A DNA stretch of 64,000 nt. Source: Ruminococcus sp. Its GTDB lineage: Bacteria; Bacillota; Clostridia; Oscillospirales; Ruminococcaceae. This document shows positions 16,349 through 49,641 of the stretch, one piece after another. How positions within the stretch are numbered: position 1 is the stretch's first letter; every line of letters begins with the position of its first letter. The stretch spans positions 1 to 64,000 of the forward strand of contig NZ_JAFUAG010000002.1 in assembly GCF_017464355.1 (NCBI RefSeq). Reading direction: 5' to 3'. The notes under the pieces are model-generated. The model saw only the letters and a list, made by a program, of their open reading frames with translations. It was not told the origin of the DNA and did not search any database. Both the position numbers and the translations under genes were made by a program.

Positions 16349-17219
16349 GATCTTATATACTGAATCGTTAACAAAAGAATACGGAAAAAAGAGAATAATA
16401 GATTCTATTTCCATGAATATAAAAGAAGGCGAAATTTATGGCTTCGTAGGGAAAAATGGTGCTGGAAAAAGTACAACTATGAGAATGCTTTGTGGTTTAG
16501 CATATCCCACTTCTGGAAAAATCATAATGGATAGTAAATTGTTACCTAGTTATAGCAAGATTGGTGCTTTGATAGAATCTCCTGGCTTATACTACAATAT
16601 GACAGCTATTGATAATCTATCCTATAAAGCAATAATGCTTGGATGCAATACCAAAGATGAGTTAAAAGAAATCCTTAAAAGCGTTGGTCTAGATAGTAAT
16701 TTAAAAACTAAAGTTAAGGATTTTTCTTTAGGTATGAAACAACGTCTCGGAATAGCCATTGCTTTAGTTGGCAGCCCAAATCTTATGATCCTCGATGAAC
16801 CAATAAATGGACTCGATCCACAGGGCATTGCAGAAGTAAGAGATGTATTGCTTGATTTAAACAAAAAAGGAATTACAATTATGATTTCCAGCCACATTCT
16901 TACTGAACTATATAAAGTAGCAACAAATTATGGGTTTATAAGTAGAGGCAAATTGCTGTTAGAAATCACTAAGGACAATCTTGATAAAAAATGTTCTGGA
17001 AAATGTTTATTAACAGTTAATAATGTTGATAAGGCAAAAATGATTTTATCTGATTTTGATATAGAGCACTCTAATAATAATGATTCTATTATTTTAAACA
17101 ATGTAGATAATAGATCAGATGCTATAAACCTTCTTGTAAAAAATGGAATCAATATATTAAATATATCGATTGAAGAGACAAGTTTAGAGGATTTTTATTT
17201 TGATATATGTAAAGAATAA
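16341..17219 (+). CDS. ABC transporter ATPase, peptide-immunity (BcrA/LanF) type
   Basis: 292-aa ATPase. Walker A GKNGAGKST at about 37-45, signature SLGMKQRLGIA, Walker B LMILDEPINGLDP, and the switch histidine in ISSHIL are all present. The signature SLGMKQR instead of LSGGQ and the 80-residue C-terminal extension are usual in bacitracin and lantibiotic resistance ATPases. AAAGGAGAAAGG precedes the ATG. With the following permease it should expel or extract a hydrophobic peptide from the membrane; the substrate is not known and no matching peptide gene lies in this element. Confidence 0.88.
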   Translation: MGKILYTESLTKEYGKKRIIDSISMNIKEGEIYGFVGKNGAGKSTTMRMLCGLAYPTSGKIIMDSKLLPSYSKIGALIESPGLYYNMTAIDNLSYKAIMLGCNTKDELKEILKSVGLDSNLKTKVKDFSLGMKQRLGIAIALVGSPNLMILDEPINGLDPQGIAEVRDVLLDLNKKGITIMISSHILTELYKVATNYGFISRGKLLLEITKDNLDKKCSGKCLLTVNNVDKAKMILSDFDIEHSNNNDSIILNNVDNRSDAINLLVKNGINILNISIEETSLEDFYFDICKE

Positions 17220-17240
17220 TGGAAAGGATATACTTAAAAT

Positions 17241-17993
17241 ATGCTTATAAAAATAATTCATATGGATTTGTATCGAATGATAAAAAGTCTATCTACTTGG
17301 ATAATCATTTTAGTATCCGGATTAGTATACTGCTTAATGCTTTTTGTATCAACATCAAGTTTTGGTGATGATATTTCTTTATTAAATCAAATATCTAAAG
17401 TTATATTTGGGGATTTTATTGCAATGTTTCTTGCAATATTTGTAAGTATTTTTTGGTATGCAGACTATAAAAATGGATATATAAAAAACACGTGGAACAG
17501 CGTAATAAATAAAGTGCATTTTATATTCTCTAAAACGATATGCGCATTAGTATTTATTGTTCTAGAATATATTTTCTTACTCTTTGTATCAGGTATATTT
17601 AATCTGGTGTATTTACATAATAAAGTCATTGGCGATTGGTCATCATTTATTAAATGTTTAATGTGTCAATTAATACTAAATGTAGCATTCGGGACAATAA
17701 TAATTTTGGTGAATTGTCTTGTTAAAAATCATGCAATAGCAATCGCTTCGTGTATAGCTTACGTTACTATTGCACCTGTGACAGTCTATTCTGCTATAAA
17801 CATATTAATTGGTAAAGTAGTAAGTGATAAAAATTTCTCAATTGGAGAATATCTACCATATGGCAATTTATATAATATAGTTCCTGACAGTTCAACCTCA
17901 GACTATACTAAAGCATATATTATATCTTTGGGATTTATTCTTATCTCATTTATTTGTACTAGTCTTGTATTAAGAAGAAGAGAAATAAAGTAA
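17241..17993 (+). CDS. ABC-2 type permease of the immunity transporter
   Basis: 250-aa integral membrane protein with six hydrophobic stretches, starting MLIKIIHMDLYRMIKSLSTW (a cytoplasmic lead-in common to LanE/G and BcrB permeases) and ending ISFICTSLVLRRREIK. It starts 21 bp after the ATPase stop. Very AT-rich. It is expected to form the membrane channel for the adjacent ATPase. Confidence 0.8.
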   Translation: MLIKIIHMDLYRMIKSLSTWIIILVSGLVYCLMLFVSTSSFGDDISLLNQISKVIFGDFIAMFLAIFVSIFWYADYKNGYIKNTWNSVINKVHFIFSKTICALVFIVLEYIFLLFVSGIFNLVYLHNKVIGDWSSFIKCLMCQLILNVAFGTIIILVNCLVKNHAIAIASCIAYVTIAPVTVYSAINILIGKVVSDKNFSIGEYLPYGNLYNIVPDSSTSDYTKAYIISLGFILISFICTSLVLRRREIK

Positions 17994-18007
17994 GATAATT
18001 ATTTGAA

Positions 18008-18169
18008 ATGAAAAAAATAATAACGAATATCTTTAGAGTGATTATAACGCTTATAGTATTTATACTTCTTACACATAGCCCCGTAATTAACTCTATACCT
18101 TTTATAAATATTGAGTCTGGTAGTATTGTACTTTATTGGAATACTCAAGAATATATTTTAATAGACTAA
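18008..18169 (+). CDS. 53-aa single-span membrane peptide in the ABC operon
   Basis: Short gene beginning MKKIITNIFRVIITLIVFIL and ending YWNTQEYILID. The N-terminus is a positively charged lead plus a 13- to 16-residue hydrophobic stretch, so it is either membrane-anchored or exported; there is no lipobox cysteine and no double glycine. It starts 14 bp after the permease stop and is followed at once by the operon terminator. A role as small immunity or accessory subunit is inferred from position only. Confidence 0.55.
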   Translation: MKKIITNIFRVIITLIVFILLTHSPVINSIPFINIESGSIVLYWNTQEYILID

Positions 18170-18170
18170 A

Positions 18171-18203
18171 AAACAAAGAGCTTTTCGAAGCTCTTTGTTT
18201 TTT
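18171..18203 (+). terminator. Terminator of the ABC transporter operon
   Basis: Perfect 13-bp stem AAACAAAGAGCTT / AAGCTCTTTGTTT (18171-18183, 18188-18200) with a TTCG tetraloop, followed by T residues. Confidence 0.92.
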
Positions 18204-18324
18204 GTAAAATATATATGTTTTTATTGTAAAATAATCTTTATAACGCTTGAAAAGTGAAGCATTTTATGTAATAATTAATTTAAATGTGCATAAACTATAT
18301 ATAATATTTGTTGTTATAAGGTGA

Positions 18325-19134
18325 GTGAGCAATTTGAACATCAAGAGTCTATGTAAGAGCATACTTTTCTTTATTTTGTATGCTTTGCTGCTTATAGTTT
18401 TCCAAACATTGTCATCCATTGTTTTAATGGCTGTAGCAGCTTTCAAAGGCATTCGGGATGAGGAGGTCATTACTCAATTTGCAAGTGATAATATACTTGT
18501 TTCTAATGGTGTATCGTTCATTTTAGTATCTTTAGTTCTTATACTTATTTTTAAAATTAGAAAAGCAAACATCAAAAAAGAGTTTAAATTGCAAAAATGC
18601 AAAGCTAAACATTTACTCATGTCAATTGCTCTCGCTTTTTCATATTCAATGCTCTTCTTTTTATTAACATATGATAATAATTTCGAGAATTCAGAAGCTA
18701 TCCACAATTCTGTTGATTACTATTCCCGATTTGCACCCGGATTAGGTTTTGTTTTAATGATAACAAACCTACTTGTTTTAGCACCTATCTCGGAAGAACT
18801 ATCGTTCAGAGGAATAATATACACACGAAGTGAATCAGGATCATCTACACTTATTCCTGTTATTGTCAGTTCTTTGTTATTTGGTATCATGCACCTGTCA
18901 GCCGGTGGGATATTGCTTGTTATCGGTGCTTTTGTGATGGGCTTTGTATTCAGCTTCATTTTCTACAAAACCAAATCACTATATGCCTGTATCTTAGCTC
19001 ACTCGACTGCAAATCTTCCTGACTTTATTTTCTATAATCACCCTAAAATATCAGGAACACAGACAGTTGTAATTTTAGGTATATCAGCTGCTATAATGAT
19101 TGCTTCCTTTGTTTTATTGTATAGATCTGAATAA
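18325..19134 (+). CDS. CPBP family intramembrane metalloprotease (CAAX/Abi type)
   Basis: 269-aa polytopic membrane protein. The conserved motifs are SEELSFRGIIYTR (about 155-167, EEXXXR) and FGIMHLS (about 191-197) plus a third conserved His/Asn region ILAHSTANLPD. Members cleave proteins within membranes or protect against bacteriocins; several accompany peptide loci. GTG at 18325 is given, but TTG at 18334 with AGGTGA 9 nt upstream is equally likely. It follows the immunity-type ABC operon inside the same AT-rich element, which fits a self-protection role (inference). Confidence 0.85.
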   Translation: MSNLNIKSLCKSILFFILYALLLIVFQTLSSIVLMAVAAFKGIRDEEVITQFASDNILVSNGVSFILVSLVLILIFKIRKANIKKEFKLQKCKAKHLLMSIALAFSYSMLFFLLTYDNNFENSEAIHNSVDYYSRFAPGLGFVLMITNLLVLAPISEELSFRGIIYTRSESGSSTLIPVIVSSLLFGIMHLSAGGILLVIGAFVMGFVFSFIFYKTKSLYACILAHSTANLPDFIFYNHPKISGTQTVVILGISAAIMIASFVLLYRSE

Positions 19135-30658: not shown

Positions 30659-31228
30659 TTATTCAGCAACATCAAATGCGACTTTCTCACGGGCTATACC
30701 ATTTTCTTCCATGAATTTCAATATCCTTTCAATTGCAGCGTCGCCGTGCTTTTGCAATGTTTCATCGCTGACAGGTCCTTCATAGAGCGAGCCGTTTACC
30801 TGTACCCAGACTACCTTTCTGGGGGGAAATTCACCTGTTCCGTCGTCATCCAGGTCATAGATCCCGATACTTGTCGATGCATGGAGATCATTTTCCTTTA
30901 TGAACTGATATAACATCTTGTTGCAGGTCAGCAGGTCGGCATCGGCAGTATCGGCGGGGCGAATGTTCTTCACCTGTGCCGTCAGCACCATAAGGTCGGT
31001 CAGATCCACCTCGCCGTCAACATTGATATCAGCTGCAAAAAGCTGTTCGCTGTCAAGGGCTTTTATGGATTTCACATGAGCCGCAAGCATGACAACATCG
31101 GTGACATCGGCATTGCCGTCACCGTTTATATCGCCGCCGATCACAGGTTCAGCGCATACGGGCAGTATCATCGTGCCGCCTATGCAGGCAGCGGTGAGCA
31201 GGGCTGTGAGTTTTTTTGTTATTTTCAT
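30659..31228 (-). CDS. Secreted dockerin protein, 189 aa, paralogue A
   Basis: Signal peptide at 1-27 (LLTAACIGGTMILPVCA), then a complete type I dockerin (about 30-90) with two calcium loops, DINGDGNADVTD and DINVDGEVDLTD, and a 95-residue C-terminal domain of unknown fold (strand KVVWVQVNGSLYEGPVS, helix AAIERILKFMEENGI). The dockerin should attach it to a cohesin on the cell surface or cellulosome-like complex. The first 90 residues are almost identical to paralogue B, which shows recent duplication. AGGAGG precedes ATG. Third gene of the protease operon. Confidence 0.85.
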   Translation of the reverse strand: MKITKKLTALLTAACIGGTMILPVCAEPVIGGDINGDGNADVTDVVMLAAHVKSIKALDSEQLFAADINVDGEVDLTDLMVLTAQVKNIRPADTADADLLTCNKMLYQFIKENDLHASTSIGIYDLDDDGTGEFPPRKVVWVQVNGSLYEGPVSDETLQKHGDAAIERILKFMEENGIAREKVAFDVAE

Positions 31229-31261: not shown

Positions 31262-31798
31262 CTATTCAGGCAAATCATATCTTAAACGGTATGTATCTAT
31301 GTTGTTTTTCTCAACAAAGTCCATCATCTTGTTTAATGCGGCCTGACCTCTCCTTTGTTCTCTTTCGGGGGACACCGGCGATACTATACATTCATTGTCG
31401 ATGGTTATGTATACTACTTTCCTTCCGATCTCGTCATCATACATGATCTTGGCATAAGCTTCAAGTTCGTTTTCATCGATGAACTTTGTTACCATGCCGA
31501 GGATGGTATCAAGGTCGGTTATTTCTGCTCTTATGTTCTTCACCTGTGCCGTCAGCACCATAAGGTCGGTTATATCCACCTCGCCGTCAACATTGATATC
31601 AGCTGCAAAAAGCTGTTCGCTGTCAAGGGCTTTTATGGATTTCACATGAGCCGCGAGCATGACAACATCGGTGACATCGGCATTGCCGTCACCGTTTATA
31701 TCGCCGCCGATCACAGGCTCGGCGCATACGGGCAGTATCATCGTGCCACCTATGCAGGCAGCAGTGAGCAGGGCTGTGAGTTTTTTTGTTTTTTTCAT
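31262..31798 (-). CDS. Secreted dockerin protein, 178 aa, paralogue B
   Basis: Same layout as its neighbour: signal peptide (1-27), two-loop dockerin (about 30-90), and a diverged C-terminal domain with the corresponding strand KVVYITIDNECIVSPVS and helix ALNKMMDFVEKNNID. Dockerin halves are nearly identical while C-terminal domains share only about a third of positions by eye, so the tails have been selected to differ or the front has been homogenised. It lies 18 bp downstream of the secreted protease gene. GGAGGG precedes the ATG. Confidence 0.85.
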   Translation of the reverse strand: MKKTKKLTALLTAACIGGTMILPVCAEPVIGGDINGDGNADVTDVVMLAAHVKSIKALDSEQLFAADINVDGEVDITDLMVLTAQVKNIRAEITDLDTILGMVTKFIDENELEAYAKIMYDDEIGRKVVYITIDNECIVSPVSPEREQRRGQAALNKMMDFVEKNNIDTYRLRYDLPE

Positions 31799-39096: not shown

Positions 39097-39202
39097 TTTG
39101 CGTCTTTTTTCTTTCGACAAAAACCTGTCCCCATGAATGCTATGATATAACTATATCAAAACGGCAGCGCTAATGCAGCTGCAAAGGAAAGGACTGGTAA
39201 AT

Positions 39203-39577
39203 TTGACAGAACTAAAGACCGTCGGTGAGGTGGTGCTGGCACAGCTGTCGGGGGACCTTGACCACCATTCTGCCAGACTAATGCGCCTGGAGATAGACCG
39301 TGCCATAGCCGATGCCCGCCCCCGCCGCCTGATAATCGACTTTTCCGCCGTGACCTTTATGGACAGCTCGGGCATAGGGCTGATAATGGGGCGCTACAAG
39401 CTCATGCATGAACAGGGCGGGGAAGTCATAGTGGCAAGACCCCCTGCCTACATAAAAAAGGTGCTGCGCCTGGCAGGTGTGGACAGGCTGGCACCTATCA
39501 CAGACAGCCTTGAAGGGCTTATTCCCGAAGTAAAGGAGGTGGATAAAATTGAGCAGACGACCCCTCAGACCACTTAA
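39203..39577 (+). CDS. spoIIAA: Anti-sigma F factor antagonist SpoIIAA
   Basis: 124-aa STAS protein. The phosphorylation loop is FMDSSGIGLIMG (about 52-63), in which the second serine is the site phosphorylated by SpoIIAB. Start is TTG 39203; the preceding GGAAAGGA is the ribosome binding site and the conserved protein begins there. First gene of the spoIIA operon; its end overlaps spoIIAB by 29 bp. When dephosphorylated it frees sigma F in the forespore. Confidence 0.93.
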   Translation: MTELKTVGEVVLAQLSGDLDHHSARLMRLEIDRAIADARPRRLIIDFSAVTFMDSSGIGLIMGRYKLMHEQGGEVIVARPPAYIKKVLRLAGVDRLAPITDSLEGLIPEVKEVDKIEQTTPQTT

Positions 39578-40004
39578 CGAGATGACCGTCAGCTTTCCTG
39601 CAAAGTCGGAAAACGAGCGCTTTGCCCGCCTGGCGGTCAGCGGCTTTCTCTCCCAGCTTGACCCGACCATAGACGAGCTTTCCGATATAAGGACAGCAGT
39701 TTCCGAGGCCGTGACCAATGCCATAGTCCACGGCTACCGTGACTTCACAGGTGATGTTTTACTTCAGGTGCGCATATTTGAAGAAGGCCGTATCTCTATA
39801 AAAGTGCAGGACAAGGGCTGCGGCATGGCAGACATCGAGCAGGCCATGACCCCGCTGTACACCACCTCCCCCGAGGAGGAAAGGGCAGGGCTGGGCTTTA
39901 CTATCATGGAGAATTTCATGGAGAAGGTCAGGGTGAAGAGCCGCCCTGCCAAAGGCACCACCGTGGTGCTGGAGCGCACCATAAAAGGGAAGCGCCGCCT
40001 ATGA
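39549..40004 (+). CDS. spoIIAB: Anti-sigma F factor SpoIIAB
   Basis: 151-aa GHKL-type serine kinase. ATP-binding N box AVSEAVTNAIVHGY (about 49-62), G1 box VQDKGCGMADIE and G2 box RAGLGFTIMENFMEKV are intact. It binds and holds sigma F and phosphorylates SpoIIAA. Start is TTG 39549 preceded by AAAGGAGGT at 7 nt. Its stop overlaps the sigF ATG (ATGA). Confidence 0.95.
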   Translation: MSRRPLRPLNEMTVSFPAKSENERFARLAVSGFLSQLDPTIDELSDIRTAVSEAVTNAIVHGYRDFTGDVLLQVRIFEEGRISIKVQDKGCGMADIEQAMTPLYTTSPEEERAGLGFTIMENFMEKVRVKSRPAKGTTVVLERTIKGKRRL

Positions 40005-40657
40005 GCAGCGCAGAAAGCTTCCTGCCCGAGGACAACCTGGGGCTGGTACACCTGTGTGCGAACCGTTTCCGCGGGCGGGGCATTGAGTACGATGACCTCT
40101 ACAGTGCAGGCTGTATCGGCCTGGTGAAAGCCTCAAAGGCCTTTGACAGCACCAGAGGACTGAAATTCTCCACCTATGCCGTACCTGTTATCCTGGGGGA
40201 GATAAAGCGGCTTTTCCGTGACGGCGGCACTGTCAAGGTGTCCCGCAGCCTGAAAGAGCTTTCACTGAAGCTTACCCGTGAGAGCATGGCTTTTGCCCGC
40301 CGTGAGGGACGGGAGCCTACTGTCAGTGAACTGGCGGAGATAACCGGGGCCTCCCCCGAAGACGTCATAGAAGCCCTTAACGCAGCCCGCCCCGCTGTCA
40401 GCCTTACTGTAGGGGACGATGAGGGCGATTCTCAGGCAGACCTGCCCACCCCGCCTCCCGATGAGGATATCACCGACCGCCTTGCCCTGCGGCAGGTAAT
40501 GGCCGAGCTTTCCCCCGAGGACAGGCGCCTGCTGGAGTACCGCTATTTTCAGAACATGACCCAGACTGCCGCCGCCGCAAAGCTGGGCATGACCCAGGTG
40601 CAGGTATCCCGCCGTGAGAAAAAGCTGCTGCTCTTCATGCGCTCACGGCTCATCTGA
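40001..40657 (+). CDS. sigF: RNA polymerase sigma-F factor (SpoIIAC)
   Basis: 218-aa sigma-70 family factor of the forespore. Region 2 is RGIEYDDLYSAGCIGLVKASKAFD...KFSTYAVPVILGEIKRL described here in parts, region 3 covers SLKLTRESMAF, and region 4 has YFQNMTQTAAAAKLGMTQVQVSRREKKLL. Complete, coupled to spoIIAB. Presence of the intact operon and spoIVB argues that this lineage can, or recently could, make spores. Confidence 0.95.
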   Translation: MSSAESFLPEDNLGLVHLCANRFRGRGIEYDDLYSAGCIGLVKASKAFDSTRGLKFSTYAVPVILGEIKRLFRDGGTVKVSRSLKELSLKLTRESMAFARREGREPTVSELAEITGASPEDVIEALNAARPAVSLTVGDDEGDSQADLPTPPPDEDITDRLALRQVMAELSPEDRRLLEYRYFQNMTQTAAAAKLGMTQVQVSRREKKLLLFMRSRLI

Positions 40658-40755: not shown

Positions 40756-40784
40756 TTGAAAACCTCCGTAAAACATGGTATTAT
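40756..40784 (+). promoter_or_regulatory. Promoter of the peptide array
   Basis: TTGAAA, 17-bp spacer, TATTAT, about 50 nt before the first peptide gene's ribosome binding site (AACGGAGG). Confidence 0.75.
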
Positions 40785-40842: not shown

Positions 40843-41061
40843 ATGACAAACACAAACAACATCAAGGACATGGAACTTACAATGGCACAGCTCGAAGAGG
40901 TATCGGGCGGTATCGAAAGCGAAGACGTATCTAAGTTCTTCAAGGGCTCCAATTCAAACGTAGGAAGGTGCATAGGCCTTGTAGCTGAACACTACACCGA
41001 AACAGTTACTATCATAAAGAACCCCAGCATACTGATATCTGTCATCAAGTCCTGGTTCTGA
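40843..41061 (+). CDS. Double-glycine leader peptide 1 (72 aa)
   Basis: Precursor-type peptide: leader of 23 residues ending in the double glycine of MELTMAQLEEVSGG, then a 49-residue mature part. The mature part differs from its two neighbours in the middle (SKFFKGSNSNVGRCIGLVAE) but keeps their C-terminus VTIIKNPSILISVIKSWF. One cysteine. This is the form of class II bacteriocins or signalling peptides cut by C39 transporter proteases. No modification enzyme or C39 transporter lies in the window, so bacteriocin, pheromone or RiPP remain possible. Confidence 0.75.
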   Translation: MTNTNNIKDMELTMAQLEEVSGGIESEDVSKFFKGSNSNVGRCIGLVAEHYTETVTIIKNPSILISVIKSWF

Positions 41062-41103
41062 TAAACAAGTAAAGAAAACAAAAAATAACGGAGGTAATTC
41101 ATC
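41062..41103 (+). repeat. 42-bp intergenic repeat of the peptide array, copy 1
   Basis: Identical to 41314-41355; it carries AAAATAACGGAGGTAATTC, the ribosome binding site of the next peptide. It shows that genes 2 and 3 arose by tandem duplication. Confidence 0.9.
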
Positions 41104-41313
41104 ATGACAAACACAAACACTATCAAGGATATGGAACTTTCATTCACACAGCTGGAAACAGTATCTGGCGGTATCACAAGCGAAGATATGATCAATAAGA
41201 CAACTTGCACAGTAACCAGGTACATGAGCGATGTCGAGGATACAGCCCGCGATATCAACGTTATCGTAAAGAACCCCAGCATACTGATAACTATTATCAA
41301 GTCCTGGTTCTGA
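41104..41313 (+). CDS. Double-glycine leader peptide 2 (69 aa)
   Basis: Leader ends MELSFTQLETVSGG; the 46-residue mature part is ITSEDMINKTTCTVTRYMSD onwards with C-terminus VIVKNPSILITIIKSWF. Differs from peptide 3 in only a handful of leader residues and conservative mature changes (SDVEDTARDI against SEVEETARDV). One cysteine. Tandem copy with a 252-bp period; strong GGAGG site. Confidence 0.75.
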   Translation: MTNTNTIKDMELSFTQLETVSGGITSEDMINKTTCTVTRYMSDVEDTARDINVIVKNPSILITIIKSWF

Positions 41314-41355
41314 TAAACAAGTAAAGAAAACAAAAAATAACGGAGGTAATTCATC
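41314..41355 (+). repeat. 42-bp intergenic repeat of the peptide array, copy 2
   Basis: Identical to 41062-41103. Confidence 0.9.
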
Positions 41356-41565
41356 ATGACAAACACAAACACCATCAAGGATATGGAACTTACAATGGCA
41401 CAGCTCGAAGAGGTATCTGGCGGTATCACAAGCGAAGATATGATCAATAAGACAACTTGCACAGTAACCAGGTACATGAGCGAGGTCGAGGAGACAGCCC
41501 GCGATGTCAACGTTATCGTAAAGAACCCCAGCATACTGATAACTATTATCAAGTCCTGGTTCTGA
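41356..41565 (+). CDS. Double-glycine leader peptide 3 (69 aa)
   Basis: Same plan as peptide 2: leader through MELTMAQLEEVSGG (identical to peptide 1 in this stretch), mature part of 46 residues ending VIVKNPSILITIIKSWF. Leader from copy 1 and mature part like copy 2 suggest recombination inside the array. Last intact gene before a terminator at 41651. Confidence 0.75.
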   Translation: MTNTNTIKDMELTMAQLEEVSGGITSEDMINKTTCTVTRYMSEVEETARDVNVIVKNPSILITIIKSWF

Positions 41566-41650
41566 TAACATGACGGGGTTTCACAAAAAAATATCGCAGT
41601 GCGGCTATAATGCAGGAAATCCAGGGCTGATAATATCACAATATAAGAAA

Positions 41651-41701
41651 AGGGCTATGTCTTCCGTGAGCGTGTACGGAAGGCATAGCCCTGATTTTTT
41701 T
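41651..41701 (+). terminator. Terminator of the peptide array
   Basis: AGGGCTATG-CTTCCGT / ACGGAAG-CATAGCCCT stem (41651-41692), then GATTTTTTT. Confidence 0.92.
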
Positions 41702-41759
41702 AGTATGTTCAGCTTTATTAAATATCCGTCTGATAATTTCAAGAAAATTATTTTACATA

Positions 41760-41788
41760 TTGACAATTCTCGAAATGTGTGATATAAT
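41760..41788 (+). promoter_or_regulatory. Consensus promoter of the ArsR-redox cassette
   Basis: TTGACA, 17-bp spacer, TATAAT, about 25 nt before the GAAAGAAGG ribosome binding site of the ArsR-type gene. Confidence 0.85.
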
Positions 41789-41818
41789 GTATCTAACATC
41801 AGGAAAGAAGGTGTATAA

Positions 41819-42139
41819 ATGGACATAGATATGATCGAGATCAGCAAGGCGCTTTCCAACGAAACGAGGCTTAATATCCTGCTCTGGCTCAAAGACCCCG
41901 AGGGCAATTTTCCACCCCAGGGCGGCTGTCTGAACGAGCCTGTTGACCTGAAAGGCGGTGTCTGCGTCAGCAGTATACAGGCGAAAGCAAATCTCTCGCC
42001 GTCCACGGTATCGAACTACCTGGACACCTTGCAGAGGGCAGGACTTCTTCTCTCAGAGCGCCACGGCAAGTGGACGTATTACCGCAGGAATGAGGAGACG
42101 ATCAAAGCTCTGGCGGAGTTTGTGAAAGAGGCATTGTAA
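41819..42139 (+). CDS. ArsR-type winged-helix regulator
   Basis: 106-aa regulator with N-terminal helix KALSNETRLNILLWLKDPEG and recognition region AKANLSPSTVSNYLDTLQRAGLL, then the beta wing GKWTYYRRNEE. Two cysteines (in QGGCLNEP and GGVCVSS) sit in the alpha1-to-alpha3 region but not in the usual ELCVCDL metal site, so a redox or electrophile signal is as likely as a metal. It has the promoter of the cassette directly upstream and probably regulates it. Confidence 0.85.
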   Translation: MDIDMIEISKALSNETRLNILLWLKDPEGNFPPQGGCLNEPVDLKGGVCVSSIQAKANLSPSTVSNYLDTLQRAGLLLSERHGKWTYYRRNEETIKALAEFVKEAL

Positions 42140-42142
42140 TAA

Positions 42143-42156
42143 TCCGATAAATCGGA
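42143..42156. promoter_or_regulatory. Palindrome after the ArsR-type gene
   Basis: TCCGAT AA ATCGGA, perfect 6-2-6 inverted repeat 4 bp after the stop and 22 bp before the next gene. Possible operator; related CCGAC sequences occur at 42395 and 42537. Confidence 0.4.
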
Positions 42157-42178
42157 ATTTACAGGAGGTGATTCATCA

Positions 42179-42382
42179 ATGACTACTCTTGGAGAAGATT
42201 TTGGATTAACGGAATATTCTGACGAATTTATCAACAAAATAATCGATTATAGAATGCATATCTATAAAAACAGAGAATTATGGGAATATTACACCTATGA
42301 TGAGATCGCCGAAAAGGAAAACTGTGATGCTGATGATGTAAGAAAAATACTCAATAGCACAGCAATAATATGGAATCATTAA
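42179..42382 (+). CDS. Small uncharacterised protein, 67 aa
   Basis: Acidic protein with a C-terminal part that reads like a short helix-turn-helix (YDEIAEKENCDADDVRKILN) but is otherwise unrecognised. AGGAGGTGATTCATCA before the ATG is a very strong start signal. Lower G+C than the genes around it, so it may be a later insertion into the cassette. Confidence 0.6.
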   Translation: MTTLGEDFGLTEYSDEFINKIIDYRMHIYKNRELWEYYTYDEIAEKENCDADDVRKILNSTAIIWNH

Positions 42383-42565
42383 CAATTGTTCTATCCGACC
42401 GAGCTGTAAGCCTCGCTTGCAGCTCATAAAACAAGCATATCAATTCGACAATATTAGAAATAACAAATAAAATCAGAGCGGTCATTGCGGTGCCCGCTCT
42501 CTAAAAACGCATTTCATATCGAATATTATAGAATTGTCGGATAAACAAAATAAGGAGAGATAACT

Positions 42566-43435
42566 ATGAAAAAACTGAAAGTCCCCACAAAAAGGGGAGT
42601 TCTGCTGGACGGTGTTTTGTTTACTGCCGGCGAATCTGGTAGTAGCGGCAGTGCGGATACCGTGATGATAGCGATAACAGGCATACATGGCAATTTCTAC
42701 TCAAACCCGTTCTATTATAACATCGGGAATACGCTGAATTCTGGCGGTATCGACTTCATCTACGCCCAGACAAATGATGCCTTCGGGCAGATCGAAACGC
42801 TGAATGTCCGCAGGGGCGAGCCTGAAATGATCGGCTCATGGAACGAGCGATTTGCTTACACCGATGATGATATTGATGCCTACCTGAGCTATGCCGAAAA
42901 GCTCGGCTACAAGCACATCATTCTCGCAGGGCATTCCCTCGGTGCGAACAAGGTCATTTACTATCTGTCCCGACATCACGATGAACGGGTTGAGAAGTTC
43001 ATTTTTCTGAGTCCTGCCAACCTCACCCACATGATGAACGGTGTGACCGAACATGAGAAGGACTATATCCGCAGTGAGGTGGAGAAAGGTCGGGGCGACA
43101 GGCTTTTGCCGTTCTATTTCATGGGGTGGGTGCAGTGCATCGCCTACACCGCCTATGACTGGATAAGCGGAACGCTGAACAATGTTCATGTAGAGCATGA
43201 CGGCGATTTCTCGCAGGCGGAGAAGATCACCCACACGGGTGCTCTGCTGATCGGTACGCTCGACCGCTTCACTTACGGCGATCCGTCGGGGTTTCTCCGA
43301 AATATAAATGACCATATCCCGACAGCGGAGCAGAACAAGCTGATATTCATTGAGGGAACGGGTCACACCTATCAGCAGAAGGAACAGCAGCTTAGCATGA
43401 TTCTGCTTGAAACGCTGAAAGAATGGGGGTATTGA
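42566..43435 (+). CDS. Alpha/beta hydrolase
   Basis: 289-aa hydrolase with nucleophile elbow LAGHSLGANKVIYYL (Ser about 125), oxyanion region ITGIHGNFYSNP, and C-terminal catalytic His in EGTGHTYQQKE. Asp is probably in IGTLDRF or YGDPSG. No signal peptide. It resembles the DUF1749/UPF0613-type hydrolases; ester or lactone substrate unknown. AAGGAG precedes ATG. It is followed directly by the tautomerase, DsbA-like and OYE genes with gaps of 1 to 3 bp. Confidence 0.88.
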   Translation: MKKLKVPTKRGVLLDGVLFTAGESGSSGSADTVMIAITGIHGNFYSNPFYYNIGNTLNSGGIDFIYAQTNDAFGQIETLNVRRGEPEMIGSWNERFAYTDDDIDAYLSYAEKLGYKHIILAGHSLGANKVIYYLSRHHDERVEKFIFLSPANLTHMMNGVTEHEKDYIRSEVEKGRGDRLLPFYFMGWVQCIAYTAYDWISGTLNNVHVEHDGDFSQAEKITHTGALLIGTLDRFTYGDPSGFLRNINDHIPTAEQNKLIFIEGTGHTYQQKEQQLSMILLETLKEWGY

Positions 43436-43436
43436 T

Positions 43437-43799
43437 ATGCCGTTTATTTTATCAAAGGTGAGTACGCCGATAAGTGCGGAACAGGAAACCAAATTGAAAT
43501 CTGGGCTTGGCAGAGCGATCTCACTTATCCCCGGCAAGAGCGAGGAATACTTACTCTGTGAGTTTGAGGATAATTGCCGCCTGTGGCTTCGGGGCGAACA
43601 TGATGAGCCAATCGCCTACATCACGGTGAGCATTTTCGGGAATGAACCGCACATCGGCAATGACCGTTTCTTTTCGGAGGTAACACGGCTGTAAGGTGAG
43701 ATACTCGGTATCCCTGCGGACAGGGTGTATATCAAGTATGACGATATTTCCGTGTGGGGCGTAAACGGTATGGCGATAGACAGACGAGCGTGGAGGTAG
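43437..43799 (+). pseudogene. MIF-type tautomerase gene interrupted by an in-frame stop
   Basis: The frame starts MPFILSKVSTPIS, with the catalytic Pro1 of the tautomerase/MIF superfamily, and runs 85 codons to TAA at 43692-43694. The same frame continues without other stops for 34 codons (GEILGIPADRVYIKYDDISV, WGVNGMAIDR) to TAG at 43797, giving the normal family length of about 120. A single nonsense change therefore separates the N-terminal two thirds from the conserved RVYIKYDDI end. It might be a sequencing error, a real pseudogene, or readthrough. Confidence 0.8.
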
Positions 43800-43801
43800 C
43801 T

Positions 43802-44437
43802 ATGGACAGACTGATGATAACAACATTCACCGATCCGATGATGGGGCTGACTTACGAATGTGAGCCGATATATGACAAGCTGAAGGAGAATTATCCGCAG
43901 ATAGAATTCCGCTGGGTAATGAGCCTGCTTGTGCGTGATATTAGCGATTTCATGCTCCCGAATGAAACCATAGCACAGTACAACAAACGGCTTGCAAGGA
44001 TATACGAAAGTGAGCAGAGTATCGGCGGTCTGCCGATAAGTATGCCCGATCTGCATCTGTTTGACGAACAGCACCGCAGCTCACTTCCGCTGAATTTAGC
44101 ATACAAGGCGGCACAGCTTGCGGACATAGACAGGGCTGACGAGTTTCTCAAAAATCTGCGTCATGTCACGATCGTTGATGTTCTGCCGACCACACATTTT
44201 GATGTGATACTGAAGGTTGTGCGTGATACGGGCATTGACGAGGATCAATTCACGCAGTATTACAATGACGGCACGGCGCAGACCATGCTTGAACATGATC
44301 TGAATATGCTGCGGAAGCTGAACATCCGAACACTTCCTGTCTACATGATACAGTACGGCGAAAGGTCTGTCATTATCCGCAATCTGATCAGCTATGAGTC
44401 GTTTGTAGAGATCATCGAGCAGTTAAAGGAGGACTGA
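43802..44437 (+). CDS. DsbA-family thioredoxin-fold protein lacking the CXXC
   Basis: 211 aa. DsbA/FrnE-like layout: first strand MDRLMITTFTDPMMGLTYECEP has TDPMMGL in the place of the CXXC active site, a long helical insert follows, and NIRTLPVYMIQYG gives the cis-proline strand. The missing cysteines rule out ordinary dithiol oxidoreduction; glutathione-dependent or isomerase activity remains possible. Start 43802 with GGAGGT close upstream, inside the end of the tautomerase frame. Confidence 0.82.
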   Translation: MDRLMITTFTDPMMGLTYECEPIYDKLKENYPQIEFRWVMSLLVRDISDFMLPNETIAQYNKRLARIYESEQSIGGLPISMPDLHLFDEQHRSSLPLNLAYKAAQLADIDRADEFLKNLRHVTIVDVLPTTHFDVILKVVRDTGIDEDQFTQYYNDGTAQTMLEHDLNMLRKLNIRTLPVYMIQYGERSVIIRNLISYESFVEIIEQLKED

Positions 44438-44439
44438 CC

Positions 44440-45420
44440 ATGAAAACCATTTTTGACAAAACCGAGATAAATGATCTGAACCTGAAAAACCGCCTGTTCC
44501 GCTCCGCCACATGGGAGGCACTTGCGGACGAAAGCGGTCATTTTGACGAGGAAATATACAACATCTATAACGAGCTTGCCGCAGGCGGTGTGGGCTGTAT
44601 CATCAGCGGATTTACCTCCGTTTCGGACACTGACCGCTATTTCGGCGGTATGGCAAGGCTCTCCAATGACGGGCTTATCTCCGAGCATACAAGGCTTACT
44701 GACATTGTTCACCGCAATGACATTCCGATCATCGCACAGCTTGCGTTGGGCGAATATCAGAATAAGGAGATAGACGAGCTGACCGAAAATGACATTGACA
44801 CTATCCGTGAAATGTTCATAAAAGCCGCCGACAGAGCCGTTCTTGCCGGCTATGACGGAGTGCAGATACACGCCGCACACGGTTTCTTTTTAAGCCGTTA
44901 TATCAGTCCTGCCCACAACCGCAGAGCGGATCCCGAACAGCTTATCATCGACATTGCAAATGCGATCAGGGCGAATCACCCCGAACTGCATATCACAATG
45001 AAGATCAATTCCAGTGATTTCACATTCGGCGGTCTTGATGAGAACGGCAGTATGCGTATCTGTCTTGCCTGTGCGCCCTATCTTGACAGTATCGAGGTCA
45101 GCGGCAACGGCACATCGGTGGGCGGCATACGACCGGGCGTGAACGAAGCGTATTTCAAGAAGTTCGCACTTGCACTTGCGGAAAAGGTCGATATTCCGGT
45201 GATACTTGTGGGCGGTCACAGAAGTATTGAGAACATGAACAACGTACTGAACGAGGGCAAGATCGAATACCTCTCGCTGTCCCGTCCGCTTATCCATGAG
45301 CCTGATTTAATAAACCGCTGGCAGAAGGGCGAATGTTCTCCAGCAAAATGCGTGAGCTGTAATATGTGCTACCGCACACCTGCCCACAAGTGCATTTTCA
45401 GACTGAGGGGGATAGAATGA
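44440..45420 (+). CDS. Old yellow enzyme family NADH:flavin oxidoreductase
   Basis: 326-aa FMN TIM-barrel. Typical features: LKNRLFRSATWEAL (FMN-binding start), IIAQLALGEYQ, GYDGVQIHAAHGFFLSRYISP then HNRRADP (active-site HXXH region), VGGHRSIENM and a C-terminal CVSCNMCYR. Cys at the end is not the 2,4-dienoyl reductase cluster, so it is the short OYE form that reduces activated double bonds of electrophiles. Two bp after the DsbA-like gene; last gene of the cassette. Confidence 0.92.
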   Translation: MKTIFDKTEINDLNLKNRLFRSATWEALADESGHFDEEIYNIYNELAAGGVGCIISGFTSVSDTDRYFGGMARLSNDGLISEHTRLTDIVHRNDIPIIAQLALGEYQNKEIDELTENDIDTIREMFIKAADRAVLAGYDGVQIHAAHGFFLSRYISPAHNRRADPEQLIIDIANAIRANHPELHITMKINSSDFTFGGLDENGSMRICLACAPYLDSIEVSGNGTSVGGIRPGVNEAYFKKFALALAEKVDIPVILVGGHRSIENMNNVLNEGKIEYLSLSRPLIHEPDLINRWQKGECSPAKCVSCNMCYRTPAHKCIFRLRGIE

Positions 45421-45497
45421 AAGTCAGAGTGAATGTTAAAAGCGTTGTTGACGGTGAGCCACGAATGTCTGCACATAAAGCGTGAGGGCGGTTTTGA

Positions 45498-45650
45498 GGG
45501 AGAGATGCTTTTAGATACGACACAGTCAAGAAAAGCACAGTTTCCGCAGTCAGAAAGTGCTTAAGCGAAGTTGAGGAGAAAGCCCATGAGTTCGGCACCC
45601 TCATAAAGAAACCGAAAATAATGATAGCTGTCATCAGCTCATGGTTCTGA
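45498..45650 (+). pseudogene. Remnant of a fourth array peptide (leader lost)
   Basis: A 50-codon open frame without start ends KKSTVSAVRKCLSEVEEKA, then HEFGTLIKKPKIMIAVISSWF. It aligns end to end with the mature part of peptides 2 and 3 (CTVTRYMSDVEDTARDINVI, then VKNPSILITIIKSWF): shared TV, LSEVEE/MSDVED, KKP/KNP and the ISSWF/IKSWF end. No double-glycine leader or ATG in frame. It lies 77 bp beyond the OYE stop. Confidence 0.65.
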
Positions 45651-45687: not shown

Positions 45688-46368
45688 TCATCTGTCTGTT
45701 CTTTTGGAGAATTTTACGGCTATGAAGAAAGAGATACAGTATGCTGCGATCACCGCTGCGATGACGGCCAGCCCTGCGGGAACGGAGATCTTTCCGTAAA
45801 CGGTCTCGGATCTCATTGCCAGCGCACCTTTCATCAGCATGAAAGTGGCTGCGCCCAGGCCGATGATACCCACAACTGAAAATACAGCCATGGCCTTTTT
45901 GAAGCTCAGCCTGAAAAATGCGGGGTAAGCCAGGGCAGGTACGGCCATTATGCTTGTCACTATCATCATTATGTGGAAGATCAGCGACTCACCGAATTCG
46001 GGGCTCATGCCGTCTTTGCAGAGCATGGTGCCAAGGTAAGCCATAACAGTATCGGCCATTATGCAGATCAGCGCCGTACCCGCAGGGGTCATATATCTTG
46101 CCAGAACAAGCTCGGTATCGGTGTAGGGCAGGGACTTCCTGTAGGCCTTGAGGCCGTTCTTCTCGTCGAAGGCAAAGGCATTGGTCATGAAGAACATGGC
46201 AACTATGCCGAAGTTGCTCGTCATTATGCTGCTGACCTCACCCTGTGCCGCCGACCAGAACAGCATCGATATGCTGTCAAAAATTATCATAACTGTTACA
46301 AAGGGATATATCAGTTTCATCTGGGCGAAGTCTGTGTACACCAGCGCCCTCATTCTGCTTAGCTTCAT
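45688..46368 (-). CDS. ABC-2 permease paralogue 4 of the GntR-controlled transporter
   Basis: 226-aa membrane protein with six hydrophobic segments and an internal loop motif LPYTDTELVLARYMTP shared in position with the three paralogues upstream. The last gene of the operon. Such permeases with a GntR regulator and one ATPase form Ytr-like exporters linked to cell-envelope stress (family knowledge). AGGAGGTAC precedes ATG. Confidence 0.8.
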   Translation of the reverse strand: MKLSRMRALVYTDFAQMKLIYPFVTVMIIFDSISMLFWSAAQGEVSSIMTSNFGIVAMFFMTNAFAFDEKNGLKAYRKSLPYTDTELVLARYMTPAGTALICIMADTVMAYLGTMLCKDGMSPEFGESLIFHIMMIVTSIMAVPALAYPAFFRLSFKKAMAVFSVVGIIGLGAATFMLMKGALAMRSETVYGKISVPAGLAVIAAVIAAYCISFFIAVKFSKRTDR

Positions 46369-46387
46369 ATGTACCTCCTTGTACGGA

Positions 46388-47077
46388 CTAATCCTTCAGC
46401 CCCAGCTGCTTTACCGATGACCTGAGGGACAGCACTGTCAGCCCGACCATTACGGCGATATCGATAATGCTGACGATCACAGGCACTTCAAAGTCAGGTG
46501 TCATGAACTGTGTCGAGGCACCGTTTTCTGTGGGGACTATCATCATGATCATGAACCCCGAGAATACAGCCAGCATATACAAAGCCGTCACCAGGCTGTA
46601 GGCCGTCTGCAGCTTCTGGTAGCCATAGCGGAATATGAACGGGTAGAATATTATGGGCATTATCAGTATCACGTCTGCTTCCAGCGCTATGCAGAACAGC
46701 AGCTGTCCCGCAAAGCCCTCAGCGAAGCCATGCATAGCCCCTCCGATGACGGAAGTTATAACTGTGAAAAGGGCTACAGCCAGTACCACGACCACAACGG
46801 GTATGTAGCGGGAAAGCACCATTTCCTTGTCGGAGTAGGGCATGGTCCTGCGGGTCACGCCTATGTTCTTGGTATCGTCTGAGGCAAAGGAAGTGACCAG
46901 CAGCATCACGGCAAAAGCACCGATGAAAGCGCTGAACCCGATACCTGCGGTGCCTGTTTCCCTGGCCTGAGAAAAGGTCATGAACGAGCCTGAAACGATC
47001 ATTACGATGAGAGCGATGTATACCACTTTCATGGTGAACCAGTCGTGGGTCATCAGGGCTTTCAGCTTTTTGCTCAT
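46388..47077 (-). CDS. ABC-2 permease paralogue 3
   Basis: 229-aa six-span membrane protein with motif MPYSDKEMVLSRYIPV. ATG 47077 lies 2 bp after the stop of the preceding gene, with AAGGA 9 nt upstream; GTG 47083 is too near that site. Same operon. Confidence 0.8.
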   Translation of the reverse strand: MSKKLKALMTHDWFTMKVVYIALIVMIVSGSFMTFSQARETGTAGIGFSAFIGAFAVMLLVTSFASDDTKNIGVTRRTMPYSDKEMVLSRYIPVVVVVLAVALFTVITSVIGGAMHGFAEGFAGQLLFCIALEADVILIMPIIFYPFIFRYGYQKLQTAYSLVTALYMLAVFSGFMIMMIVPTENGASTQFMTPDFEVPVIVSIIDIAVMVGLTVLSLRSSVKQLGLKD

Positions 47078-47079
47078 GG

Positions 47080-47709
47080 TCACACGTCCTTTCTTTCAAA
47101 TATCCTTATGGAGATGAACCATGAAACGAAGAATGCTATGACCATCACGCTCATGAATACTACCGAGCCCATGATACCAGGGATATGGTTCAGGAAGAAT
47201 ATATTTGAAAAACCTACCAGACCGCCTGTCAGACCGCCCAGGAATATCCTCTTGCCGCCCACGGTGTCATACCACTTGAAGTTGAAGGGCAGGAAAGCCA
47301 CTGCGGGCATGAGCCCCAGCCCGAAGCCCGAGCAGAGCAGGGAAGTCACTGTGCCTGCGGTGACATTTGCACCGAGAAGCGAGCATATGCCCATGAATAT
47401 CAGCCATACTACTGCCGTGCCTGTTACAAGTATAAGGGAAGATATGTACTTTGCAGATACTATCTGTCTGCGGGAATAGGGCAGTGTCATGCAGCCCATA
47501 TGCCATTTGCTCTGTATATCGTTGTTTGAGGTGTTTACAGGTACTATGCCCATGAACATGAACACCATGCCCACAGGGAAGCCGACAATGGTGCTGTGCC
47601 TGCCGAACAGTGTTATCAGCATCGCAGCGAAGAAGAACAGCGGTACCAGCAGGAATAGTGCGCAGTTGTGCCACATTGTATATTTTTCTTTGATGAGTAA
47701 GCCTTTCAT
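47080..47709 (-). CDS. ABC-2 permease paralogue 2
   Basis: 209-aa six-span membrane protein starting MKGLLIKEKYTMWHN with motif LPYSRRQIVSAKYISS. The start resembles that of paralogue 1 (MKGLLTKDIIQI), which shows direct duplication. AAGGAG precedes ATG. Confidence 0.8.
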   Translation of the reverse strand: MKGLLIKEKYTMWHNCALFLLVPLFFFAAMLITLFGRHSTIVGFPVGMVFMFMGIVPVNTSNNDIQSKWHMGCMTLPYSRRQIVSAKYISSLILVTGTAVVWLIFMGICSLLGANVTAGTVTSLLCSGFGLGLMPAVAFLPFNFKWYDTVGGKRIFLGGLTGGLVGFSNIFFLNHIPGIMGSVVFMSVMVIAFFVSWFISIRIFERKDV

Positions 47710-47747
47710 GTTGTTTGCTCCTTTTTTATATGTAAGGGTCTGCCCCG

Positions 47748-48395
47748 TCAGATGTCTTTCTTTTCGTATAAGGCCGTCGAGATGAGATAAGATATCACCG
47801 TCAGCACTGCCATTACCCCCAGCACCGCCGCAGAGGTCTTCACGGGAATATGTACGCCGTATATGCTGTCCTTCATGCCGAGCCTTGAAACAAAGCCTCC
47901 CGATATGGAGCCGTATATCACCAGCGATACAGTGTAAGCTATCCTCGCTCCCGATGCGCTCCTGCTCTTTGAAACGAAGGGCATTATAAAGGCGCTTACC
48001 GCCAGGCTCAGCGCACTTATCATGATCCCTCCCGATATGGGGTCGTTCACGGGATTTCCGCTAAAATGGGCAGCAGCCGCTGTCACCAGCATGAAGAATG
48101 CACCGCTGGCCAGGGCGTTTATCGCCGTAAGCATAAACTTCGAGCCCATGTAATCCTTCCTTGAATTCGGCAGTGTCACGGACATTTTGTCAAAGCCTGT
48201 TTTCAGGTCGTCCATTATCAGCGTCAGCGGCATGATCGCCTGAAATATCGATACCATAGGCAATATGGCAAAGGGTATGCTGCCGTTTTTCATAGTGCCT
48301 ATGGCGCACAGCACCGACATGAATATCAGGAACGGGAAAAAAGTCAGGTAAGCCGTTCTGATCTGTATGATATCCTTGGTCAGCAGACCTTTCAT
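47748..48395 (-). CDS. ABC-2 permease paralogue 1
   Basis: 215-aa six-span membrane protein starting MKGLLTKDIIQIRTAYL with motif LPNSRKDYMGSKFMLT. It follows the ATPase gene by 21 bp. Same family as the next three genes. Confidence 0.8.
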   Translation of the reverse strand: MKGLLTKDIIQIRTAYLTFFPFLIFMSVLCAIGTMKNGSIPFAILPMVSIFQAIMPLTLIMDDLKTGFDKMSVTLPNSRKDYMGSKFMLTAINALASGAFFMLVTAAAAHFSGNPVNDPISGGIMISALSLAVSAFIMPFVSKSRSASGARIAYTVSLVIYGSISGGFVSRLGMKDSIYGVHIPVKTSAAVLGVMAVLTVISYLISTALYEKKDI

Positions 48396-48416
48396 TTCTT
48401 TATCTCCTCTTTGATG

Positions 48417-49262
48417 TCAGTTTATCTCTTTTATCATGAAAATGAACAGTTCCTCAATGGTGACGGGAGAGAGGTTCATCCCCGCAGGAACAGCGTCCCG
48501 CCTTACCAGTACCTGTACCCCGTACTTGCCTGCCTTTTTGCCCCGTATAGCCTCAGGGTCAAGGTCTTTCAGCTCTTCCTCGGAGCAGTGGGCTATGGCA
48601 TACTCTTCCAGCAGAACGTCCTTCTCCTCGTTGAGCAGCACCCTGCCCTTGTGTATGAATGAAACATAGTCGCAAAGCTTTTCCAGGTCGCTGACTATGT
48701 GGGAGGATATCAGTATGGAATGTTCCTCATCTCTGGTGAACTCATAGAAGATATCCGTTACCTCATCTCTTACCACAGGGTCAAGACCGTTGGTGGCTTC
48801 GTCCAGCACCAGCAGCTTTGCCTTGTGGGAAAGGGCAATGGCTATGCCCATTTTCATCTTCATGCCTCGGGAGAACTCCTTGAACTTTTTGTCCTTTGAA
48901 AGCTGGAACCTGTCCATATATTCAAAGAACAGCTTTTCGTCCCAGTTGCGGAAGGTGTTCTTCATAACCGCATTTATGTGCTTTACCTTGAAGGTGTCGG
49001 GTATGCCCACTTCGTCCAGCACCACGCCGATATCCTCCTTGATATCCGCAAGCTCGGTGTCTGCATCTCTGCCGAGTATCTTTATGCTGCCCGAATTCTT
49101 GTGGATTATGCCCAGCAGGCACTTTATCAGCGTGGATTTGCCCGCACCGTTCTCACCGATAAGACCCAGTATGCAGCCTCCGGGCAGTGTCAGGTCAACG
49201 TTGTCCAGCCTGAATTCCTTGTATTCCTTTACCAGGCCCTTTATCTCAATGGCATTTGTCAT
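48417..49262 (-). CDS. ABC transporter ATPase of the GntR-controlled exporter
   Basis: 281-aa ATPase. Walker A GENGAGKSTLIK, signature FSRGMKMKMGIA, Walker B LLVLDEATNGLDP and HisSwitch ISSHIV are intact; the C-terminal third matches YtrB/EcsA-type extensions. ATG 49262 follows GGAGGAGTAACAAG directly after the GntR stop. It should energise one or more of the four permeases. Confidence 0.9.
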   Translation of the reverse strand: MTNAIEIKGLVKEYKEFRLDNVDLTLPGGCILGLIGENGAGKSTLIKCLLGIIHKNSGSIKILGRDADTELADIKEDIGVVLDEVGIPDTFKVKHINAVMKNTFRNWDEKLFFEYMDRFQLSKDKKFKEFSRGMKMKMGIAIALSHKAKLLVLDEATNGLDPVVRDEVTDIFYEFTRDEEHSILISSHIVSDLEKLCDYVSFIHKGRVLLNEEKDVLLEEYAIAHCSEEELKDLDPEAIRGKKAGKYGVQVLVRRDAVPAGMNLSPVTIEELFIFMIKEIN

Positions 49263-49266
49263 CTTG

Positions 49267-49641
49267 TTACTCCTCCTCGGAGATGTATTCAAACATCTCG
49301 ATCAATTCTTGTTTCGTCAGCCCGCAGCCTGCTGCCAGCTTTCCTATCTCTTCCATGAGTTCCTCTATTTTTCTGAGGTTAGCTTCTTTTATCAGTTCCA
49401 CATTTTTTGGTGCCACAAAGCAGCCCTTGGCCGCTATGGTGTATATGAAGCCTTCCCGTTCCAGTTCGTCGTAAGCTCGCTTCGTCGTGACCACGCTTAT
49501 CTTCAGGTCCTTGGCGAGATTTCTTATGGAGGGCAGGGCTTCGTCCTCTTTCAGTGTGCCGTTTATGATCTGGGTCTTTATCTGGTTGAAAATCTGATCG
49601 TAGATCGGCGCACCGCTTTTATTGTCAATAAATATGTTCAT
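49267..49641 (-). CDS. GntR family regulator, YtrA subfamily
   Basis: 124 aa. Winged helix with YDQIFNQIKTQIINGTLKE and LRNLAKDLKISVVTTKRAYD-type recognition segment (given in part), then a short helical effector-free tail as in YtrA. First gene of the ABC operon and most likely its repressor. GAGGT precedes ATG. Confidence 0.9.
   Translation of the reverse strand: MNIFIDNKSGAPIYDQIFNQIKTQIINGTLKEDEALPSIRNLAKDLKISVVTTKRAYDELEREGFIYTIAAKGCFVAPKNVELIKEANLRKIEELMEEIGKLAAGCGLTKQELIEMFEYISEEE

Follow-up and report, generated by a model that had tools for sequence, protein, structure and literature searches.

A double-glycine peptide array of Ruminococcus sp. apparently interrupted by a redox cassette

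A fourth peptide copy beyond an insert

Three adjacent genes for small peptides with double-glycine leaders and a leaderless fragment of a fourth (peptides 1–4) lie in a 64,000-nucleotide stretch of a Ruminococcus sp. genome (assembly GCF_017464355.1, contig NZ_JAFUAG010000002.1, positions 1 to 64,000; hereafter, the window). Between them is an insert, of which some 3.9 kb (approximately 41599–45515) has matches elsewhere, carrying a cassette of genes running from an ArsR-family regulator to an old-yellow-enzyme (OYE) family protein. Both joints of the insert can be located, and the fragment is kin to the array. An earlier note on this DNA had suggested that the cassette entered a longer array, and this is now backed by the insert-free site in relatives, by the independent occurrence of the cassette, without the peptides, in other genomes, and by the position of its right edge at peptide 4. 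Overall, we consider it probable that the cassette was inserted into the array, that the array peptides have their own transcription unit, and that they are exported in trans without being modified. The array, with at least four genes, would have been flanked by a sigma-factor operon and, converging on it, a GntR/ATP-binding cassette (ABC) operon when some 3.9 kb of horizontally moving DNA was inserted immediately downstream of peptide 3; at the joint, peptide 4 would have lost its spacer and start, together with its leader and initial residues. The features on which this reading depends are the following:

40843..41061, + strand: peptide 1, 72 aa, double-glycine leader
41104..41313, + strand: peptide 2, 69 aa, double-glycine leader
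41356..41565, + strand: peptide 3, 69 aa; leader resembles that of peptide 1, mature part resembles that of peptide 2
41569..41599, no strand: left joint between array and insert, somewhere within this interval (similarity of copies 2 and 3 stops at 41568; dispersed-repeat similarity runs from 41599)
41599..41701, + strand: scar, consisting of the end and terminator hairpin (41651–41692) of a dispersed DUF6809-like gene (repeat matches)
45418..45515, + strand: internally deleted remnant of a DUF1934 gene, at the right end of the insert (match to L111, a contig described below)
45519..45650, + strand: peptide 4 fragment, leaderless (similarity to peptides 1–3)

The three adjacent double-glycine peptide genes of 69–72 aa reported in the earlier note were borne out by the open reading frames (ORFs) and by their shared leader and end. 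They lie on the + strand downstream from the sigma-factor gene, each with AATAACGGAGG upstream, and are arranged as a head-to-tail repeat with a 252-nt unit and 94% identity. All three begin with MTNTN-x-IKDMEL-x3-QLE-x-VSGG, a leader of 23 aa ending in VSGG, and finish with KNPSILI-x2-IKSWF. The mature part had been described as nearly cysteine-free, and a single Cys was counted after the double glycine in each peptide. The mature peptides have a computed mass of 5.3–5.5 kDa (averages of 5458, 5277, and 5291 Da for the unmodified products cut at GG) and a computed net charge of 0 or -1.

When peptide 3 was used as the query against the whole genome, the 45498–45650 frame was matched with an E-value of 4.5e-6 and 43% identity over query residues 28–69. 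The best local score of the fragment against the three peptides was 95. None of 5000 shuffles scored above 42, and among the other 1355 stop-to-stop frames in the window (1359 in all, including the three peptide genes and the fragment frame) the highest score was 43. The similarity thus goes beyond chance. The leaderless fourth copy that the note had placed at 45498–45650 is therefore real, but it begins at about 45519 and not at 45498: positions 45498–45515 of the frame are cassette sequence, and the likeness to the peptides begins at 45519. Because the frame has no leader and its sole in-frame ATG lies nine codons from the end, peptide 4 is a fragment and not a gene. Across the final 29 codons plus the stop (90 nt), 27 differences separate peptide 4 from peptide 3 and 33 separate it from peptide 1, while peptides 1 and 3 differ from each other at 29 positions; by its divergence, then, peptide 4 has the appearance of an ordinary array member.

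The joints of the insert

On the left, no more than about 35 bp past the stop codon of peptide 3, the insert opens with the end of the DUF6809-like gene. The 41599–41701 segment is a dispersed repeat matched in 13 of the 29 genus genomes (a total that, here and below, includes the genome under study), and in seven of the 13 aligned copies the likeness, as judged by eye, extends upstream into a gene end. One gene that ends in this repeat, in L096, just reaches the DUF6809 model (27.9 bits; cut-off 27), and a serine recombinase ends 0.6–0.8 kb upstream of the repeat in two of the eight stretches listed for ORFs. The same terminator stands upstream of arsR on a contig carrying the cassette (L110) and therefore belongs to the cassette side. 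The dispersed gene end and its terminator were also seen in L096, L098, and L099, among others.

The right joint was read by comparison with contig L111, in which the OYE gene is followed by an intact DUF1934 gene (PF09148, 39.0 bits; cut-off 22.5). The window matches this gene from its start to 45458, is internally deleted by about 100 bp, and matches it again as far as 45515, where the likeness stops; the similarity to the peptides starts at 45519, about 4 bp away, and the right edge of the cassette thus falls within the fourth peptide gene. Because both joints cut genes or gene ends, the junction looks illegitimate and not like the clean end of a known element. The entering fragment would have comprised the end of the DUF6809-like gene, arsR, orf67, the hydrolase gene, the MIF-like frame, dsbA, the OYE gene, and parts of the DUF1934 gene. 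Here, both joints of what would be a horizontal insertion can be read, with a resident peptide gene broken; the general picture is unchanged by it.

The site in relatives

The insert and the array are flanked by two convergent operons:

39173..40657, + strand: left flank, STAS protein, HATPase_c_2 (RsbW-like) protein, and SigB/F/G-like sigma factor
45688..49641, − strand: right flank, GntR/ABC operon, convergent with the sigma operon

A sigma-factor match was found in all 29 genus genomes, and the stretch beyond it was compared in 12 relatives, at least two of which reach contig ends. Four of the 12 (G004, G013, G003, and G023) have the sigma operon and this GntR/ABC operon in convergent orientation, the sigma and ABC matches being separated by 417, 72, 72, and 975 bases, respectively. 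The corresponding gap in the window is 5.0 kb, so that approximately 40.66 to 45.69 kb is extra with respect to those four relatives. In the other eight, the stretch compared did not contain the ABC operon. No peptide or cassette match at E 1e-4 was found after the sigma factor in any of the 12. The GntR/ABC operon was also considered as a dedicated immunity or export system and set aside, since it stands by the sigma operon in relatives without the peptides; compared with PmtR and PmtA, it scored below cut-off (123.7 bits against 200 and 245.8 against 350).

These flanks bear on the possibility of an artefact behind the fourth copy or the split, whether through fortuitous resemblance or through a chimeric contig. 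The genome is a draft of 49 contigs, 91% complete, and near-identical 252-nt units are open to miscounting in assembly. However, the similarity of the fragment is significant by both the E-value and the shuffles given above, and the outer flanks adjoin in four relatives, which makes the contig plausible across the insert and, because these flanks are shared, speaks against a chimera. An artefact is accordingly highly improbable.

The cassette in other genomes

The cassette itself consists of:

41760..41788, + strand: promoter-like site, TTGACA-17-TATAAT (consensus match only)
41819..42139, + strand: ArsR-family regulator (NF033788, 61.5 bits; cut-off 55)
42179..42382, + strand: orf67, in the variable slot of the cassette (no family matched)
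42566..43435, + strand: alpha/beta hydrolase (PF00561 and PF08538 above cut-off)
43437..43694, + strand: short frame, presumably MIF/tautomerase-like (no family match)
43754..44437, + strand: DsbA/thioredoxin-like protein (PF13743, 64.1 bits; cut-off 27)
44440..45420, + strand: OYE (flavin mononucleotide oxidoreductase) family protein (PF00724, 102.5 bits, against 27)

Relatives of the OYE protein (E 1e-30 or better) were present in three of the 28 other genus genomes (G015, 84% identity; G010, 76%, in two pieces; G012, 40%), and a scan of genome contigs added Ruminococcus sp. UBA4275 (91%), Bacillota USPA_maxbin.103 (89%), and Ruminococcus sp. RGIG9280 (87%). A match in Paracoccaceae, with 34% identity over 60 residues, was set aside. 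The cassette was then compared in five contigs, two of which end at contig ends: L072 (from G015), L073 (from G010), L109 (Ruminococcus sp. UBA4275), L110, and L111. All five carry the ArsR–hydrolase–OYE cassette, with the same genes as the window, and none carries the peptides; tblastn of peptides 1, 3, and 4 against them gave a best E-value of 0.60. In L109 the order is also the same (arsR, hydrolase, MIF-like, dsbA, OYE), while no MIF-like or dsbA match was found in L072, L073, and L111, and no MIF-like match in L110. The MIF-like frame of the window ends after 85 aa, earlier than its L109 counterpart, which continues past that point. A match to peptide 3 (E 0.010) in another stretch of G010 (L013) has an internal stop and was taken as chance.

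The ArsR proteins of G015 and G010 are 94% identical to that of the window, whereas their sigma factors are only 62% and 65% identical to the window's; OYE, like ArsR, is more alike between the species than the sigma factors are. Because the identity of ArsR exceeds that of the sigma factors, the comparison points to a horizontal movement of the cassette. The slot between arsR and the hydrolase gene is variable, being occupied by orf67 in the window (42140–42385), by a GNAT-family protein in L073 (8191–8721), and by a 189-aa ORF of no family in L072 (2686–3255); L109 and L110 have no ORF of at least 80 aa there. The GC content at third codon positions of orf67 is 29%, compared with 54–70% for the other 12 genes or fragments measured.

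As the fragment directly touches the cassette, and peptide 4 is not close to any single one of the three copies, it could also have arrived with the cassette, from a donor with an adjacent gene of the same family, homology to the array then having guided the integration. This is quite unlikely, given that no peptide of the family was found beside the cassette within the stretches compared in the five contigs (with the contig ends mentioned above), that the L111 cassette runs into an intact DUF1934 gene instead, and that the distance of peptide 4 from peptides 1 and 3 is about the same as that between those two.

Export and possible modification

A single C39 domain was found in the genome (PF03412, 117.4 bits), on a contig other than that of the array. 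The protein is part of an NHLM exporter pair (TIGR03796, 925.9 bits against 853.3; TIGR03797, 719 against 709.4) located at L011 8782–14833 (contig C15), where a STAS-like protein and a 137-aa HlyD-like protein (29.9 bits; cut-off 156.2) precede the pair, and a double-glycine peptide whose leader matches those of the array follows it. TIGR03796 is above cut-off in eight of the 29 genus genomes, and thus the distribution of the exporter does not follow that of the peptides. A leader profile was built from six peptides, three from the array, two from contig C11, and one from contig C15, which it finds again by construction; below these six came a match within a frame of 784 aa (E 0.94) and another, on contig C25 (E 3.1), that reads ELDPEQLEGVGGG. 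V(-4), L(-7), and L(-12) are common to all seven leaders (the six and that of contig C25); LahT150 accommodates these residues in its hydrophobic groove (PMC6363468). Judging from these sequences, it is plausible that the array peptides are exported in trans by the NHLM C39 transporter and cut after the double glycine, and they would act outside the cell unmodified. With a single exporter detected, the removal of one gene would probe several peptides.

The statement in the earlier note that the peptides have no obvious modification enzymes holds locally, but elsewhere in the genome, on contig C11 (L123 5472–9046), a radical SAM/SPASM protein occurs together with two double-glycine peptides and a response regulator. 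This group is a possible modified-peptide cluster. The radical SAM and SPASM domains are above cut-off (65.2 and 25.1 bits), the leaders of the two peptides share D-x-EL...L..VSGG with the array, and NHLM exporters are known from modified-peptide clusters (PMC2887384); the C11 protein could consequently modify peptides 1–3 in trans before their export. We regard this as unlikely, since the array is on another contig, no maturase model reached cut-off with the C11 protein, each mature peptide has only one Cys, and no LanC-like cyclase (PF05147) was matched in the genome, of which 91% is represented.

Several points weigh against insertion into a longer array followed by independent transcription and export in trans. 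None of the collections searched yielded an unsplit array or a second genome with the peptides; because of this, the order of events, with the array first and then the cassette, is one that we infer from the nesting. Peptides 1–3 most likely form their own transcription unit, with a promoter-like site 5′ of the array:

40756..40784, + strand: promoter-like site, TTGAAA-17-TATTAT (consensus match only)

Nevertheless, the scan that yielded this site found no more sites in the region than in shuffles (11, compared with 9.5 expected). Position -15 matters for two pneumococcal exporters, and such exporters discriminate between leaders (PMC7018657); in the array leaders, this position is Asp. The exporter is on another contig of a genome that is 91% complete, and a closer one may be missing. 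The net charge of the mature peptides is 0 or -1, and no dedicated immunity gene was recognized near the array, orf67 being of no family and in the slot of the cassette.

Function and known systems

The leader type, size, and copy number are the basis for estimating a role outside the cell. An antagonistic, bacteriocin-like role is quite possible for the mature peptides, and a signalling role may be entertained more tentatively; a modified product seems unlikely, and some other activity very unlikely. In their charge, mass, and single Cys, the mature peptides depart from typical cationic bacteriocins.

The peptides resemble the double-glycine peptides of C39 ABC transporters (class II bacteriocins and pheromones; PMC6363468) in having a short GG leader with V(-4), L(-7), and L(-12), a small mature peptide, and a C39 transporter in the genome. 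They differ from these systems in that no transporter, immunity, or regulator gene was recognized in the insert, and their mature part fits no known family; no class II bacteriocin model reached cut-off with the array peptides. A likeness to the NHLP and Nif11 precursors that accompany NHLM exporters (TIGR03793, TIGR03798, TIGR03796, and TIGR03797) lies in the type of the exporter pair and in the VSGG at the end of the leader. However, the array leader has 23 aa, compared with about 70–83 (PMC4289311), and the array peptides did not match the NHLP and Nif11 leader models. The nearest model for the array peptides is the cyanobacterial CTB family bacteriocin (NF038167), with weak similarity over the leader but a best score of 18.5 bits against a cut-off of 32.

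Mosaic structure of the array

Over leader codons 12–23, copy 3 differs from copy 1 at one of 36 nt and from copy 2 at eight of 36, while over its remainder it differs from copy 2 at three of 141 nt. Copies 1 and 3 are similar at their ends and diverged at the centre: codons -29 to -17 show 0.61 synonymous differences per site, compared with 0.14 for the leader and 0.10 for the final 16 codons, figures that derive from small numbers of synonymous sites (9.0, 14.0, and 10.3, respectively). Because the segments seem to differ in history, recombination within the array is likely. Positive selection on the peptides was considered and dropped, the substitution counts having too few sites to support it.

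A bolder proposal, which we put forward as rather improbable, is that this is a species-private, fast-changing family in which recombination homogenizes the leader and the KNPSILIxxIKSWF end and the centre undergoes exchange or diversification, the peptides being interchangeable cargo of one genome-wide exporter (perhaps also of one radical SAM enzyme) that serves four or more unlinked double-glycine peptides as well. If this were true, receptor or membrane binding would fall to the conserved end and specificity to the centre.

Relatives of the peptides elsewhere

No Pfam or NCBIfam model reached cut-off with the peptides, and a PHROG search gave no match. Peptide 3 was modelled with too little certainty to support a fold search (mean pLDDT, the predicted local distance difference test score, of 61.4), and a search of solved structures returned three matches, all with E 0.18 or worse. 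Within the limits set for each search, the peptides also matched nothing in the genome contigs, viral contigs, plasmids, or phages searched. Among the 28 other genomes of the genus, five gave matches at E 1 or better (best, 0.189), and no peptide gene of this kind was seen in the DNA around two of the five. Matches at E 0.1 or better were obtained in 17 of the 395 other genomes of a family sample (best, 0.0023), and at E 0.01 or better in two of the 393 others of an order sample that overlaps it (best, 0.0043). These E-values are per genome, and the match counts at the three levels are below chance expectation. A match in G274 was rejected, as it belongs to a different family with longer double-glycine leaders. 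A literature search found no report of the peptide family among the papers listed. The family is an orphan, multi-copy one of the familiar double-glycine exported kind, and it adds an entry of this type to the probable export repertoire of Ruminococcus relatives.

Some other loci were noted along the way. In another genus of the family, L025 (G274:C33) has several neighboring peptides whose cores are rich in CxxC and whose double-glycine leaders are long. In the window, positions 16341–19134 encode consecutively what we take to be an ABC ATPase and a permease-like protein, and an Rce1-like CAAX protease (PF02517). Two adjacent proteins at 30659–31228 and 31262–31798, presumably dockerin-like, have nearly identical first halves.

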